From Gammaproteobacteria bacterium (GTDB taxonomy: Bacteria > Pseudomonadota > Gammaproteobacteria > CAIRSR01): a stretch of 43,575 bases of DNA. Under the pieces are notes generated by a model. The model ran no database searches. It had not been told where the DNA came from and was given only the letters and a program-made list of their open reading frames with translations. The DNA lies in NCBI GenBank assembly GCA_963575715.1, contig CAUYTW010000022.1, positions 1-43,575 on the forward strand, read 5' to 3'. Below, piece after piece: positions 1,837 to 43,575 of the stretch. The stretch's first letter is position 1, and each line of letters starts with the position of its first letter. Both the position numbers and the translations under genes were made by a program.

Positions 1837-1971
1837 TCATCAGTGTCTCCAAGAAACCTCGCCCTTCAAGGCGGGGAGGAAAGGAGACGGTTTTACAACC
1901 GTTCGTTAAAAACGCCGATCAATCTCAGACTTGTTTTCACAAGCCACGCGCTTTAGGGCGGGGTGATTGAC
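1837..1971 (-). mobile_element. Short IS200/IS605-like palindromic element (PATE-like), between cusC and manC
   Basis: On the minus strand the segment starts with a left-end-like palindrome (GTCAATCACC, then a GC-rich stem, then GGCTTGTGAA). It ends with a right-end-like palindrome (a CCTTGAAGG core followed by GAGGTTTCTTGGAGACACTG, then ATGA). Between them is a perfect 6-bp hairpin, ACGGTT-ttac-AACCGT (1887-1902). There is no transposase. This layout is that of non-autonomous elements moved by TnpA of the IS200/IS605 group. The same pair of ends, in the same order, bounds 36711-37116. Assignment is by end resemblance only. Confidence 0.5.
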
Positions 1972-3890: not shown

Positions 3891-4206
3891 GGAACTCATG
3901 GTGCATCGTCATTATCAACCAGGCCCATTAAGTGAGTAAATAACCTAAATGAGCACTTGGATATAATAATTTTAGGCAGAGTATCTTTGTGCTTAGATAT
4001 CCATGAATAACCATATTCATGATATCAATTGATTACCGTGCTGCTCTTCTTTGCTACATAAAGACTTGTATCATCGAAGTTGCTTGCTGTCTATGAATGG
4101 CTTTTATGCAAGTTACAGGACAATAATAATTGTTAGGAGTTACATATTTGAATTTTAACTATTTAATTTTGCTAAAAAATTACTAACTTTTGGTTCCAAC
4201 ACCAAA
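3891..4206. other. Non-coding stretch with no recognised feature
   Basis: AT-rich sequence between the tnpB fossil and the hairpin upstream of the chemoreceptor. I see no credible open frame or RNA gene. It probably holds the chemoreceptor promoter, which I could not place. Confidence 0.5.
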
Positions 4207-4263
4207 GGCAGCGTTTCCTCCCTTCCACCCTGCGGGATTGAAGGGCTTCCACGCCGAGGATTT
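4207..4263 (+). promoter_or_regulatory. Palindromic leader hairpin (GGCG/CGCCG family) abutting a start codon
   Basis: A GGC-A-GCGTTTCC arm and a TTCCACGCCG arm enclose a CCCTTC...GAAGGG stem. CGCCG ends at 4256, 7 nt before the ATG at 4264. GAGGA directly after the hairpin can act as ribosome binding site. The same element, with CGCCG ending 7 and 8 nt before the start, precedes the genes at 32765 and 43343. It resembles right ends of IS200/IS605 elements, but its placement suggests a role in translation. Confidence 0.6.
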
Positions 4264-5856
4264 ATGAATATTCAAGCAGCGAATGTAAATTTTTCCTCCT
4301 CCGTTCCGTTGAAAAAATCCGATCAAAGGACAATTTTTCATAGCATTGGAACAAAACTTAACGCCCTCTTCATCGCGATGGTGACGTTGGTGTTCGGTGT
4401 CACGGGAACGATTAATTTTTTTGAAACGAAATCAGTGTTGATGGCACGCCTTGAGGATAAAAATGCTCAAGTCAAAGCACGGCTTCAGGTCAGTGTTTCT
4501 CGGGCTTTGTGGGATTTACAAACCGATGGTGTGGCTGGTCTTCTTCAGGCAGAAATGGCAGATGAAGATTTATTAGCAATTGCTGTAACGGCTCAGGATC
4601 AATTCATCGCGGGTTATCGCCGAGATACGAATGGAAACTTGAATGCACTAAACAAGTCAATCATCCTCGACGGAATATCTCGTGATTTTGATCTTTCCTA
4701 TCTATCGGAAGGAAAGGAACAGCCTGTAGGTAAAGTTACCTTCACCCGCTCACTAGATCGTCTGGTGCAAGAATCACGCGCGGTTTTATGGCAAACTCTG
4801 TTCGAGATTATGATTGCCGACTTTGTGCTAATCGTCGGGCTTTCATTAGGGCTGCGCTTGCTGGTTTTACGTCCAATCGTGCAAACTCAAAAAGCACTGG
4901 ATCAAATCGCCGAGGGCGATGCAGATCTTACCTTTCGGCTTAATGATAAACGTTGTGACGAACTCGGAGCGATGGCAATAAGTTTTAATACTTTCACCGC
5001 CGGATTGCGGGAGATGATTTCTCAAATGCAAGACAGCGCTACTGAATTATTATCCACGGCGCATGAAACAAGCTCCATTACGGAGAAAATTCATCAATCG
5101 CTACGACAGGAAAAATCAGAGACGGTGAAAGTTGCTAATGCCGTAGCCAATTTGGTCAAACAAATTGAAATTATTACCAATCATGCCCGATCTGCTGTCT
5201 CGACCGCAAAGGTTTCCGATAAACAAGCTCGTTTTGGTCAAACTGTTGTCAATGATGGCATTACTATCATGAACGGCTTGCGCCGCGAGATGGAAAAAAG
5301 TATGGAAGTGGTTCAATCGTTGGCTTCGGATGCAGAACAAATTGGTCGAGTAGTCGAAGTAATTCAGGCAATTACCCAACAAACCAATTTATTGGCATTG
5401 AACGCTGCCATTGAAGCTGCGCGCGCAGGCGAAAATGGACGAGGATTTGCGGTGGTAGCCGATGAAGTACGCAAATTGGCCACCCGCACCCAAACTTCTA
5501 CAGAAGATATTCAGGCGATGATTCAACGTCTTCAGGATAGCGTGCGTCAAATAGTGATTGTCATGAAAACCAGTCAAAATCAGGTTAAGTCTGCGGTGGA
5601 TAACGTTGATCACGCAGCGGCGCGCATGACCGAAGTTAGTGAATCGATTCAGTGCATCGCCACCATCAACCATGATATTTCCCTTGCCTCCAATACCCAA
5701 AATAGCGCGGTGATGGGGATCAATACTAGCGTGCGGATGCTCGATCAATTAATGGCGGATACCGAGCAAGGAGCATCGCACAATTTTCAGGCAAGCCAAC
5801 AATTAGCTAATTTGGCCAGCGCGATGAAAACGCTTGTGGAACGCTTCAAGGTATAA
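4264..5856 (+). CDS. Methyl-accepting chemotaxis protein (transmembrane, HAMP)
   Basis: 530 residues. A first membrane segment (about 31-52) is followed by a periplasmic sensor region of about 125 residues with no domain I recognise. The second membrane segment (about 181-201) leads into a HAMP domain (about 203-255). The cytoplasmic signalling domain has the conserved hairpin tip [20 protein letters not shown] and [15 protein letters not shown]. There is no C-terminal CheR-binding pentapeptide (it ends VERFKV). It would pass ligand information to a CheA/CheW array encoded elsewhere. It shares its unusual leader hairpin with the cheY-like gene at 32765. Confidence 0.93.
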
Positions 5857-24124: not shown

Positions 24125-24925
24125 GGGCCTGTTAACACTAAAATAGGAATAAAAACATGATATTAACCGCGATAATTTTTGAAAAAATTGAAAAGCTATT
24201 ACCACGTCAACGTGGTAATGTGACATATTCCAATTTTTCTGTACTAACCGCGATACTATATGTTTTAGAAAACGGTTGTAAATGGAGAGGTCTCCCAAGA
24301 GAATTTGGGAATTGGCACACGATTTACACGCGCGCCAATCGATGGGCAAAAAGAGGTGTCCTGGATCGCGTCCTTTCTGTATTGAAGGAGGAATTAATTA
24401 AGGAAGTTGAGCATGTATCGTTAGATAGTACAATTATTAAAGTACATCCCGATGGTACCGGTGCGTTAAAAAGTAGTGGTCCACAATCGATCGGTAAAAC
24501 ATGCGGTGGATGGACCACAAAAATTCATATGATTGCGGTCGATGATAAAAAATCACTTGATTTTTCATTATCTTGTGGACAAGCGCACGATGCGCCCGAG
24601 GGAAGAAAACTCCTCGAACAATTAAACACAGAAAAGCTGGAAGGAATTTCAGTAATCATGGATAGAGCCTATGAGGACGATAAAACAAGGAAGTTAGTAT
24701 CTGATCTTGGAATGGAACCTGTAGTTCCTCCAAAAAAGAACAGAAAGATAAAATGGAAATACAACAAAAAAACGTATAAAAAAAGAAATGAAGTTGAACG
24801 ATTATTCAGGAGATTAAAAAGATTCAGAAGGATTTTTACAAGATTCGATAAATTAGATGTCATGTTTAATTTCTTTATCACTTTTGGCCTAATTTTAGAT
24901 ATGTTCAGTTAGTGTTAACAGGCCC
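24125..24925 (+). mobile_element. IS5-family insertion sequence (IS427-like group), complete
   Basis: About 801 bp. Near-perfect inverted ends (GGGCCTGTTAACACTAA at the left, TTAGTGTTAACAGGCCC at the right) are flanked by TA on each side (24123-24124, 24926-24927), a 2-bp target duplication. One intact transposase gene fills the element. It landed between the cysS stop and aroA without breaking either gene but separates them by about 840 bp. The group is assigned from size, TA target and transposase type. Confidence 0.9.
24157..24912 (+). CDS. IS5-family DDE transposase
   Basis: 251 residues in one frame, whereas IS427-group transposases are often split in two frames. N-terminal DUF4096-like domain (ILYVLENGCKWRGLPREFGNWHTIYTRANRW). 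DDE residues are visible as LDSTIIKVHPDG, VIMDRAYEDDKTR and RNEVERLFRRLKRFRRIFTRFDK. No frameshift or stop interrupts it, so it may be active. The A+T-rich, Lys-rich tail (KNRKIKWKYNKKTYKKRNE) contrasts with host genes and fits recent arrival. Confidence 0.95.
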   Translation: MILTAIIFEKIEKLLPRQRGNVTYSNFSVLTAILYVLENGCKWRGLPREFGNWHTIYTRANRWAKRGVLDRVLSVLKEELIKEVEHVSLDSTIIKVHPDGTGALKSSGPQSIGKTCGGWTTKIHMIAVDDKKSLDFSLSCGQAHDAPEGRKLLEQLNTEKLEGISVIMDRAYEDDKTRKLVSDLGMEPVVPPKKNRKIKWKYNKKTYKKRNEVERLFRRLKRFRRIFTRFDKLDVMFNFFITFGLILDMFS

Positions 24926-28634: not shown

Positions 28635-28889
28635 ATTGAATTATCAAAATAGAGAGTTTAAATTGCTAAAAAAAATTGGCTTATGCCAATTCCACGGCTT
28701 TCGTCGGTAACAGTTACCTTGACAAGATTAAACGTTGGTAACTATTTCGATGACACGATCAGTTTTCCCTGTCTATCCTGTTTAATCATCGAATTACAGA
28801 ACTTGGAACTGGAGAAGCATTTCAATGTGTGTTTTTTAAACGCTTACGTTTATCGTAGTTCTGTATTTCGATTTGGTTGAGTCTTCGCC

Positions 28890-28907
28890 TTCATGCCGAA
28901 GCATGAA
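28890..28907 (+). terminator. Hairpin in the panB downstream gap
   Basis: TTCATGC-cgaa-GCATGAA is a perfect 7-bp stem with tetraloop. A second, weaker hairpin (GAACT...AGTTC, 28924-28949) ends in seven Ts. Either could end panB transcription. The rest of 28635-28966 has no gene I can support; a 65-codon frame at 28683 lacks a ribosome site and homology. Confidence 0.45.
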
Positions 28908-28966
28908 AGCGATAATAAAAAATGAACTAGCTTATCGATTGCGAAGTTCTTTTTTTAAGCAGGGGC

Positions 28967-29356
28967 TCAACAATTTTTAGCTAACACCAATCCAGCCAAC
29001 ACCACTGCGACTGCAGCAAGAGTGGCATTGTAGAGTAGCAATCCAGCACCGCCTATCGCCATCGCAGCCATAGCGACCTTTTCCATTTGACGCCCATCAC
29101 GCAACACCATCAACACTGCTACAAGTGCCAACGCCAGCGCCAGACCGCCAATAATCTTCCATTCGGTTGCGACGATTAGCGCGGTTCTCGGCGGACACCA
29201 CCATGGCCCATTCACTTCGCAAATTGCACCATTGACATCGGGTTCAATAAATGAATAGCGAAGAACGTAGCCTGTCAAGGAGGTGATCGTTGCTAAAAAA
29301 ATACCACTAGCTGGTTGAACTGCCTTGATTAAAGCAAAAATGCGAGACACCATCAT
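28967..29356 (-). CDS. Small integral membrane protein, unknown function
   Basis: 129 residues from the ATG at 29356, chosen because AAAGGA lies 5 nt upstream; an in-frame start at 29386 would add 10. Three or four hydrophobic segments are visible: IFALIKAVQPASGIFLATITSL, WKIIGGLALALALVAVLMVL, and a C-terminal pair rich in Ala and Gly. A loop between the first and second has two cysteines (AICEVNGPWWCPPRT) and faces one side of the membrane. No family recognised. It lies downstream of aceE on the same strand with a 165-bp gap. Confidence 0.6.
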   Translation of the reverse strand: MMVSRIFALIKAVQPASGIFLATITSLTGYVLRYSFIEPDVNGAICEVNGPWWCPPRTALIVATEWKIIGGLALALALVAVLMVLRDGRQMEKVAMAAMAIGGAGLLLYNATLAAVAVVLAGLVLAKNC

Positions 29357-32235: not shown

Positions 32236-32714
32236 CCATGAATTCCAGAATGAACGATGTTTGACATCTACCAGGGAAGGCTCAACCAAAATGGAGGCCA
32301 TATCAAGCAACTTTGGTCAATGTCAATGGCACTACTACGTTACCGTCCGTAGAATGATGCACCGGAACCATTTAATTCAAGGCTGCCATAGCTTTTTAAA
32401 CACGCACAAGGTTTTACGCCCGAGACTTCCCCGGCAACCGCATACCTTAACTTGTTAAAAAGCACTAAAATTTTAACATGAATGCTGCGCATGACGAAAA
32501 TCAAAAAATATTTGAACGCGATTCATCCAACGGCTAAACCCAGCGGCTCTCTCGCTATTTTCTGTAATAGAAGCGGAAGTTTCTAGCTAATCAATTTTAT
32601 TTGATATGATTAAGAGTTACGCGGTTGAACTTTAATTGTTTGATTCAGATGGAAGGTTGACAGCCGGGAAAGACCGGCAACTTCAACTTCAACTTCAATA
32701 AAAAAACAGGAGGA
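32236..32714. other. Gap upstream of cheY: fragments of repeats, no gene
   Basis: No credible open frame. It holds a diverged MITE end (32611-32632) and a small palindrome AGCCGG-gaaag-ACCGGC near 32660-32678, of the same type as 37013-37030. AGGAGG at 32708-32713 lies about 50 nt upstream of the cheY start, on the far side of the leader hairpin. Promoters for cheY and aceE are expected here. Confidence 0.45.
32611..32632 (+). repeat. Diverged remnant of a MITE end
   Basis: TAAGAGTTACGCGGTTGAAC differs at two positions from TAGGAGTTACGCAGTTGAAC, the end of MITE copy 2. The second end is missing. Confidence 0.6.
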
Positions 32715-32764
32715 CGGCGCTTCCTCTCCATGGCTGAAGCCAGGGGTTTCCGCGCCGAATTTGG
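32715..32764 (+). promoter_or_regulatory. Palindromic leader hairpin (GGCG/CGCCG family) abutting cheY
   Basis: CGGCGC (32715-32720) pairs with GCGCCG (32752-32757), with an inner TGGC-tgaa-GCCA stem. The hairpin ends 7 nt before the ATG at 32765, the same distance as at 4264. No Shine-Dalgarno sequence lies between hairpin and start; AGGAGG is on its 5' side and would be brought near the start if the hairpin folds. Confidence 0.65.
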
Positions 32765-33136
32765 ATGAAAACTATTCATCTGGTTGATGATTCACCCACT
32801 ATCTTAATGAGTCTCCACGATATCCTGACCAAAGCTGGCTTCAAAGTCGAGCAATCGAAAAACGGCCAGGAGGCTCTAATTCGCTTCAAAGGTGGCGTTA
32901 AACCCGACCTGATTATTACCGACGTCAATATGCCCGGCATGAGCGGCATTGAACTTGTCAAGGAAGTCCGCAAACTACCTGCTTTTCGCTTCGTGCCAAT
33001 ATTGGTGTTGACTACCGAGTCCCAGCAGACCAAACGCAGCGAGGGTAAGGCCGCTGGTGCCACCGGTTGGTTGGTCAAACCAGTTGCGGGCAGTGATCTG
33101 GTCAACGCCGTCAAACAGGTGCTGCCGGGGGCCTGA
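32765..33136 (+). CDS. cheY: CheY-like single-domain response regulator
   Basis: 123 residues, one receiver domain. Acidic pocket D8/D9, phospho-acceptor D53 in [12 protein letters not shown], switch Thr in LVLTTES (83-84) and Lys105 in WLVKPV are all present. It has no output domain, so it would act by protein contact, as CheY does on the flagellar or twitching motor. Its stop overlaps the next start (TGATG). The leader hairpin is shared with the chemoreceptor gene at 4264. Confidence 0.9.
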
Positions 33137-36710: not shown

Positions 36711-37116
36711 CTAAATCACCCCAAGGCTAAAACCGGGGGCTTTAATTGAATAAAGCCTGATTTACCAGCCTAAATCTAAAACATCGGACTACGTTGCAAC
36801 GAAGCACAAGATTCACCTACGAATGCTTCCTCAGTTCGTAGCTCTGAAAGCGGCGGATGCAGACAACCTTAGGGGTAGGACGAAACGGTTTGTCGCAAGG
36901 TTCAAAATCTTGTCCTGCGCGAAGTCGCAGGAATCGAACTGAAGCTGCGTTGCAACTTTGGCGAGTGGAGCGAAGTCGAAAGGCATCCGTCACTAAGCCC
37001 GTAAGGGCTGACAGCCGGCAAAGACCGGCTTTTTTGACTGACAGTTTTTCCCGCTAAAACCGTTTTTTTTCATACCTGCCCGATTAAAGCCGGGGGTATC
37101 TCGGAGACAATGATGA
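36711..37116 (+). mobile_element. 406-bp IS200/IS605-like non-autonomous element with structured interior
   Basis: The left end has CTAAATCACCCCAAGGCTAA and CCGGGGGCTTTAATTGAA. The right end has CCCGATTAAAGCCGGGGGTA then TCTCGGAGACAATGATGA. These are the same end types, in the same order, as 1837-1971. The interior has no protein gene I recognise but is rich in perfect hairpins: TCCTGCG-cgaagt-CGCAGGA (36913-36932), AGCCC-gtaa-GGGCT (36996-37009), and a terminator at 37013. It could be a guide-RNA (omega-RNA) region left after loss of tnpB, or another structured RNA. It fills most of the 592-bp gap 36633-37224. Confidence 0.5.
37013..37035 (+). terminator. Intrinsic terminator inside the 406-bp element
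   Basis: AGCCGG-caaaga-CCGGCT followed by TTTTT, preceded directly by the AGCCC/GGGCT hairpin. It suggests that the interior of the element is transcribed on the plus strand and ends here. Confidence 0.65.
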
Positions 37117-42161: not shown

Positions 42162-43343
42162 TCATCTAGCGAAAATCGCTGCCATGCGATTCAAGGCGAT
42201 TTCCAGGTTGTTCATGCTGGTAGCGAATGACAGCCGAATATAACCCGGAGCGCCGAAAGCGGCTCCAGGCACCACGGCCACTCCTGCGTGTTCAATAAGA
42301 TATTCCGCAAGCTCAATATCGTCTTCAACGCCGGGGAGGGTCGCAATCGCAGCGCGCATGTCGGGAAAGGCATAAAAAGTGCCATCACCAGGCAGACAAC
42401 GCACTCCGGTCATACGGTTGAGCGCCGCCACCAGGTAATCATGACGCTCCCGAAACGCAGTCACCATGGGCTTGATGCGGTCCAATCCCCCTTCAAGAGC
42501 GGCTTCGGCGGCTACTTGCGCAATCGAGGTCGGATTGGAGGTACTCTGTGACTGAAGATTAGCCATGGCTGCAACGAGGGGCGCCGGACCCGCGCAATAG
42601 CCAATCCGCCACCCAGTCATGGCATAGGTTTTGGAAACGCCGTTCAGAACTACGGTACGGTCATAAAGGTCTGGACAGACATTGAGGATGTTGCGGAACG
42701 GCTCATTACTCCAGCGGATATGTTCATACATATCGTCGCTGGCGATTAGCACCTCGGGATAACGGCGCAACACCTCGCCCAGTGCCGCCAGCTCTGCTGG
42801 TGTATAGCCTGCACCAGTGGGATTAGAAGGACTGTTGATGACAAACAGGCGGGTGCGAGCGGTGATGGCCGCTTCAAGTTGGTCGGGTGTAATTTTGAAA
42901 CCTTGCTCAATGCTCGCAGGTACAATCACCGGCACGCCATCGGCAAGCAGCACCATATCGGGATAGGAAACCCAATAAGGCGCGGGAATGATGACCTCAT
43001 CGCCTGAATCCAGAAAAGCCTGTGCGAGGTTGAAAAAGCTCTGTTTTCCTCCCACAGATACGATGACCTGGGCGGGAGTGTAATTTAGATTATTTTCCTG
43101 AGAAAATTTCTTGACAATGGCGCGTTTCAGCGACGGCGTGCCATCGACCGCTGTGTACTTGGTGAATCCACGACGAATCGCATCAATAGCAGCTTCTTTG
43201 ATGTGATCGGGCGTGTCGAAATCAGGCTCGCCAGCTCCTAAACCAACAACGTCACGGCCCGCTGACTTGAGCGCGGCAGCACGAGCGGTCATCATCAAAG
43301 TGGGGGAAGGTTTAATACGCTGTATACGTTGAGAGAGTTTCAC
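42162..43343 (-). CDS. aspC: Aspartate aminotransferase (class I, subgroup Ib)
   Basis: 393 residues from the GTG at 43343 (VKLSQRIQRIKPSPTLMMTARAAAL), matching the usual start of the family; a longer frame from 43430 runs through a palindromic repeat and is unlikely. GLGAGEPDFDTPDHIKEAAI, SVGGKQSFFNLAQAFLDSGDEV, FVINSPSNPTGAGY, ASDDMYEHIRW and SKTYAMTGWRIGYCAGP (PLP lysine) are conserved. It transfers amino groups between aspartate/oxaloacetate and glutamate/2-oxoglutarate. No Shine-Dalgarno precedes the GTG, only the CGCCG-family hairpin. Confidence 0.92.
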   Translation of the reverse strand: MKLSQRIQRIKPSPTLMMTARAAALKSAGRDVVGLGAGEPDFDTPDHIKEAAIDAIRRGFTKYTAVDGTPSLKRAIVKKFSQENNLNYTPAQVIVSVGGKQSFFNLAQAFLDSGDEVIIPAPYWVSYPDMVLLADGVPVIVPASIEQGFKITPDQLEAAITARTRLFVINSPSNPTGAGYTPAELAALGEVLRRYPEVLIASDDMYEHIRWSNEPFRNILNVCPDLYDRTVVLNGVSKTYAMTGWRIGYCAGPAPLVAAMANLQSQSTSNPTSIAQVAAEAALEGGLDRIKPMVTAFRERHDYLVAALNRMTGVRCLPGDGTFYAFPDMRAAIATLPGVEDDIELAEYLIEHAGVAVVPGAAFGAPGYIRLSFATSMNNLEIALNRMAAIFAR

Positions 43344-43397
43344 GAAATTTACGGCGTGTGGAAACCCTCGATCCTGAAGGATCGGGGGGAAACGCCA
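43344..43397 (-). promoter_or_regulatory. Palindromic leader hairpin (GGCG/CGCCG family) abutting aspC
   Basis: On the minus strand GGCGT...ACGCCG encloses GATCC-ttca-GGATC. CGCCG ends 8 nt before the GTG start. It is the third copy of the leader found at 4207 and 32715. Confidence 0.6.
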
Positions 43398-43430
43398 TCC
43401 TCCTTTGTGGTGGGCTTGACTAAATAACAA

Positions 43431-43522
43431 TATGAGTTACGGAGTTTAATTTGTAACTCTATAACAGGATTGATTTTTTTCTGTCATTCTGCGCGCAGCG
43501 TAGTCGCAAAATTCATCTACTT
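43431..43522. mobile_element. MITE-like element, copy 3, truncated
   Basis: The left end TATGAGTTACGGAGTTTAAT is diverged from TAGGAGTTACGCAGTTGAA. The interior TTTGTAACTCTATAACAGGA then CTGTCATTCTGCGCG matches copy 1. It is cut at 43522 where a second end begins. Confidence 0.75.
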
Positions 43523-43575
43523 TAGGAGTTACGCAGTTGAAAAATAGGAAGTCATTCTGCGCGCAGCGAAGCGGA
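43523..43575. mobile_element. MITE-like element, copy 4, start only
   Basis: It begins with a perfect TAGGAGTTACGCAGTTGAA, then AAAATAGGAAGTCATTCTGC, the reverse complement of the right arm of copy 1. It runs out of the window. It appears inserted into, or abutting, copy 3. Confidence 0.75.

Follow-up and report, generated by a model that had tools for sequence, protein, structure and literature searches.

The closest described systems are the OMEGA elements of the HEARO/IscB-IsrB kind (RF02033), and Weinberg et al. reportedly noted already in 2009 that HEARO is inserted next to RTGA. The non-autonomous derivatives of IS200/IS605 transposons, such as REP/REPIN and PATE-type MITEs, are small gene-less copies with subterminal hairpins, a fixed short target at one end and no visible target duplication. 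IsrB orthologues recognise an NTGA TAM (PMC9581776). In the leaders of T4 genes 38 and 25, the Shine-Dalgarno (SD) sequence lies too far from the AUG, and an intervening hairpin shortens the distance (PMC3014915). Furthermore, IStrons are IS605 elements with a group I intron (PMC4227781).

The elements studied here share with HEARO/IscB-IsrB the omega-RNA, the presence of IscB/IsrB ORFs in the genome and an NTGA-type motif adjoining the element. However, there are more than 100 mostly gene-less copies with several types of right end (RE), most of the ATGA copies lie on start codons, and decayed copies keep the RE only. They also resemble REP/REPIN and PATE-type MITEs in the features given above, but they differ in having an omega-RNA, in taking RTGA as the target on their right side and in being concentrated at start codons, where those derivatives are dispersed over extragenic sites. 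As in the T4 leaders, the SD is distant along the sequence and a hairpin lies between; here, in contrast, a mobile element delivers the arrangement, as predicted from sequence, to many genes. IStrons and the present elements have in common RNA features that could help the host gene to tolerate an insertion, but there is no splicing here, and the proposed tolerance would come from a replaced ribosome-binding site. The kind of element is thus already known; the majority placement on start codons and an RE with ribosome-binding signals appear to be new, as we found no report of either in the part of the literature that was covered.

The three hairpins of the window

In the window (the whole stretch of 43,575 nucleotides analysed here), hairpins precede the genes for a chemoreceptor (start at 4264), cheY (32765) and aspartate aminotransferase (43343, minus strand), and we found that they are the REs of one family. 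The sequence-only reading had already placed all three correctly and had given the right spacings: from the last CGCCG to the start codon there are 7 nt at the chemoreceptor gene (aggattt, 4257-4263; ATG), 7 nt at cheY (aatttgg, 32758-32764; ATG) and 8 nt at the aminotransferase gene (taaatttc, 43351-43344, minus; GTG). It missed that all three start codons are part of an RTGA (ATGA at the chemoreceptor gene and cheY, GTGA at the aminotransferase gene), and it overlooked that at cheY and the aminotransferase gene the hairpin is immediately preceded by a strong SD, AGGAGG.

At the chemoreceptor gene, a family C RE occupies 4200..4263 (+), with an outer stem (4211-4214/4251-4254), internal loops, an inner stem and the 7-nt tail AGGATTT; a GAGG lies in the tail region just upstream of the start. 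The ATGA target (4264..4267, +) is the start of ORF 4264-5856, in whose first 300 aa a HAMP domain was found. At cheY, the AGGAGG (32708..32713, +) is separated from the hairpin by 2 nt and from the ATG by about 50 nt of sequence. The family A RE follows at 32716..32764 (+; hairpin 32716-32756, tail ending AATTTGG), and the ATGA target (32765..32768, +) is the start of ORF 32765-33136 with a Response_reg domain. At the aminotransferase gene, all features are on the minus strand: AGGAGG at 43399..43404, an A/C-like RE at 43344..43397 (hairpin 43352-43397, 8-nt tail TAAATTTC) and the GTGA target at 43340..43343, which holds the GTG start.

The HEARO search detected no omega-RNA at any of the three copies, and we read it as decayed. 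At cheY, all that is left of it is the 20-nt GACAGCCGGGAAAGACCGGC (32659..32678, +), a stem sequence that in intact copies lies on the omega-RNA's 3′ side; there is no HEARO match there. The putative family membership of the three copies therefore rests on their REs. An Rfam scan of the window found no known cis-regulatory RNA at the three hairpin sites.

The inner stems had been described as different in sequence and still paired. Conservation is indeed seen in the outer stem and a TTCC/TTTCC internal loop, whereas many copies have a degenerate inner stem, and only one of nine consensus pairs of the hairpin showed a two-sided change, that is, little covariation. In addition, the folding energies of the three window hairpins were ordinary (z = 0.19, -1.36 and -1.66), so that one copy alone is not significant.

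The window contains further relics of the family. A near-complete non-autonomous element (36711..37112, +) includes a HEARO omega-RNA (36711-36976) and a D-like RE, followed by an ATGA at 37113 that is no gene start; it runs against the orientation of the neighbouring genes. Meanwhile, a 131-bp mini-element (1841..1971, -) between manC-like and TolC-like genes has the left end GTCAATCACCCC and the D-type RE GGAGACACTG, its omega-RNA core is deleted, and the ATGA after its RE is not a gene start either. A degenerate HEARO match at 28707..28971 (-) scored 48.6 bits, under the family cut-off. There are also other short repeats, with GAGTTACGCAGTTGAA-like and CGCTGCGCGCAGAATGAC motifs at 43496-43575 and 32616-32635; these motifs recur near element copies in the window and on other contigs and may be further small repeat families. 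Besides, ORF 24157-24912 (+), between cysS-like and aroA-like genes, reads by eye as an IS5-type DDE transposase.

The element family and its insertion sites

A search of the 3.7-Mb genome with the pattern TTCC-gap-GGNTTCCRCGC gave 68 matches (about 66 real by eye) vs 3 for the reversed-pattern control, and the family that the sequence-only reading had proposed to look for is thus real. The stricter motif CNCGCCG found the aminotransferase copy only. In addition, there were 129 HEARO matches (Rfam RF02033) in the genome, with omega-RNA matches above the gathering score. The architecture was derived by aligning 111 HEARO matches with their 3′ flanks, plus the hairpins with their flanks. From 5′ to 3′, the order is a left end (GTCAA/GTAAATCACCCC), an omega-RNA of about 220-270 nt, a ACAGCCGGGAAAGACCGGC stem, a spacer, the RE hairpin, a fixed tail and RTGA. 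The left end is sharp, the flanks beyond it being unrelated between copies, and many copies have their RE on the HEARO strand, 110-170 nt further downstream.

The RE tail is fixed, 7-11 nt long, and ATGA or GTGA comes directly after it in 130 of the 138 tabulated copies. Thus, the constant spacing of 7-8 nt in the window is the element's own tail. Five RE types were told apart by their tails: CGCCGAATTTGG in type A, CGCCGGAAATGCTGG in type B, CGCCGAGGATTT in type C and GGAGACAMTG or GGGGACATTG in type D, each followed by ATGA, and GCGGGCATTTG in type E, followed by GTGA. Among the window sites, cheY has type A, the chemoreceptor gene type C and the aminotransferase gene an A/C-like RE with GTGA.

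Most copies are gene-less and consist of the omega-RNA only or have decayed to the RE; we found neither iscB nor tnpA within any copy of types A-D in the genome. On contig C62, the omega-RNA and an E-type RE with its GTGA flank an IscB/IsrB-like 323-aa ORF of the RRXRR type, which possibly serves the gene-less E-type copies in trans. In this element (L032 1501-2790), the ORF shows no HNH motif by eye and ends 5 nt before the RE and GTGA. On contig C351, HEARO, an HNH-containing IscB and the Y1 transposase TnpA occur together. Near this element, an A-type RE (L044 ~2949 (-), with L142) adjoins the start of a gene resembling short-chain dehydrogenases; the element's own RE (TGGCGATTCATCCCC..CTCGCCA) shares the layout of that A-type RE but has a different tail. 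Y1_Tnp had three matches above the cut-off in the genome; one is that adjoining HEARO and iscB on C351, and none is inside an A-E-type copy. The link to tnpA or tnpB that the sequence-only reading had considered is not required; most copies are non-autonomous.

Related genomes contain empty sites. In the sister species G001, cheY has no element and a normal leader, TTGGAGGAAAATGCC, then ATGAAG; the aminotransferase gene has the empty site GGCGTGGAC, then GTGAGA, so that both genomes start this gene at the same GTGA. Between accB and accC of the genome studied here, a complete element stands between a short spacer with the end gcatcg and ATGATAAAAAAA, whereas in G003, which has no HEARO matches, the spacer ending gacatcg runs directly into ATGATAAAAAAA. 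The comparison with element-free G003 indicates that the insertion at accB-accC was exact, with no visible duplication or deletion. These alignments show that the element is an insertion and not an ancestral leader. Furthermore, types A and B are nearly absent from G001-G003, and therefore their spread should be recent on the genus scale. A phylum-wide search found HEARO in 3 of 398 genomes, including the genome studied here.

Subterminal hairpins, a short one-sided target and the lack of target-site duplication were all found, from both ends and the accC empty site. We identify the hairpins, by sequence comparison, as REs of mobile elements that are of the HEARO/IscB type, belong to the IS200/IS605 superfamily and are in most cases non-autonomous. 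The earlier suggestion of an IS200/IS605-type end preferring sites upstream of start codons was essentially right, with RTGA at the right end as a target that coincides with start codons.

Placement on start codons

Coding ORFs were called by a dicodon gene model for which long ORFs were the training set. The start codon of a coding ORF was found at 70 of the 113 ATGA-flanked copies (62%) vs 147 of 1044 other non-coding ATGAs (14%; p ~1e-27), the remaining 43 copies being at non-start positions; a random placement relative to starts, which would have spoken against the sequence-only reading, is therefore not what is seen. The enrichment was robust to five cut-offs (35-62% vs 5-15%). The share of copies on starts varied among the types: 33/43 for A, 9/17 for B, 10/13 for C, 18/40 for D and 1/14 for E. 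Family E is not enriched, and GTGA, its target, less often serves as a start (null 4.9%). Two related genomes point the same way: starts were found at 13 of 28 intact D-type copies in G001 and at 5 of 5 readable copies in G002, both counted by eye and set against the null of the genome studied here.

The genes downstream have no common function, and essential or core genes are among them. They include parE/gyrB, aroB, serC, galU, YqeY, the ribosomal protein L19 gene (rplS), thiC, fliG, lysyl-tRNA synthetase, dut, nadB, cysM, aroK, pheT, accC (biotin carboxylase), gltA, glgA and tadA. These names are the author's reading of Pfam matches, and several of the domains begin at residue 1-4. A D-type RE also lies at the start codon of a caspase-domain (Peptidase_C14) gene (L061 2224-3123, +). 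An element at a start RTGA separates the native ribosome-binding region from the start codon.

Shine-Dalgarno signals and the origin of the placement

Most RE types contain an SD-like sequence. In nearly all A and B copies, the outer stem is preceded at 1-2 nt by a near-perfect AGGAGG and followed after 8-11 nt by the start, so that the effective distance from SD to start would be short, about 10 nt, if the hairpin folds. In types C and D the motif, GAGG or GGAG, is inside the tail, and type E is without an SD-like motif. The predicted anti-SD pairing had a median of -10.3 kcal/mol 5′ of the A/B hairpin, about -6.5 in the D tail and about +0.4 5′ of the E hairpin. In A and B copies, the AGGAGG diverged by 6.7% at starts vs 11.4% elsewhere, and the inner stem by 15.5% vs 8.1% (interaction p = 0.04). 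This pattern is suggestive of selection on the SD at start copies, and purifying selection is weakly supported. We also considered omega-RNA loss as a sign of selective RE retention at starts. The pooled test was significant (Fisher p = 3e-4), but the effect vanished after stratification by family (CMH z -1.35, not significant), and thus it is not used as evidence.

We propose that the elements insert with their fixed right tail against RTGA, as shown by the family alignment and the empty sites. RTGA is the start codon of many genes, and start-codon copies make up more than half of the ATGA-flanked copies. Such copies would persist since the RE would work as a leader: in families A and B, the folded hairpin would bring the 5′ AGGAGG near the start, and in families C and D, the GGAG/GAGG of the tail would supply the SD. 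Characterised OMEGA nucleases suggest by analogy that the left flank may act as guide and RTGA as TAM, and IscB/IsrB in trans could cut the empty site, which would favour retention of the element. As a whole, HEARO/IscB ends that abut RTGA, with start-codon copies persisting as leaders, are very probably the best explanation. The element end may thus serve as a portable translation leader whose hairpin bridges SD and start. The stronger proposal is plausible but tentative, namely that the RE of a start-targeting element evolved into a portable ribosome-binding site, that it can displace the native leaders of dozens of core genes with the host surviving, and that these genes now depend on transposon-derived leaders.

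The placement could also result from the target site and survivorship. The elements would then insert at any RTGA, start-codon copies would be harder to lose because a deletion would remove the gene start, and hairpin and SD would have no role in translation. This is possible, if somewhat doubtful. RTGA is indeed the target, the roughly twofold divergence of the inner stems at starts fits a greater age of these copies, and the parE copy has lost its SD. However, the divergence of the SD does not track the higher divergence of the start copies, and the near-identical copies of G001 are already enriched at starts. Furthermore, the split of the native ribosome-binding site from the start should be costly for rplS, accC and pheT unless the element substitutes for it. 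The enrichment in G001 would also fit a transposase that actively prefers start codons, for example via single-stranded DNA at translation-initiation or transcription regions, and even among the copies away from starts, most point in the direction of the next gene (48:15 vs 750:653 for control RTGAs). Nevertheless, the copies of family E, which are among the best conserved, show no enrichment, and to our knowledge no mechanism for such a preference exists in IS200/IS605 elements. We regard an active preference as unlikely.

A domesticated cis-regulatory RNA, either a riboswitch or a translational regulator, over a regulon including chemotaxis genes is very improbable. The conserved outer stem and internal loop, the fixed distance to start codons and the SD beside or within the hairpin would suit it. 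However, 43 ATGA copies are at non-start RTGAs, covariation is little, the same sequence is the end of an element with its omega-RNA attached, and families A and B are nearly absent from the sister species. The sequence-only reading had raised the idea of an RNA in control of several genes, two of them for chemotaxis; this is not supported, since the genes downstream are functionally unrelated, and from their functions we reject a chemotaxis regulon.

Returning to start-codon copies as leaders, our results link the TAM of IscB-type OMEGA elements to start codons. Native ribosome-binding regions of core genes have been replaced wholesale by transposon ends, as judged by position alone. Caution is also needed with "conserved leader hairpins" close to starts, which can be transposon ends. 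If the leader function is true, this transposon makes insertion at the worst place of a gene harmless, an outcome comparable to that of the self-splicing IStrons.
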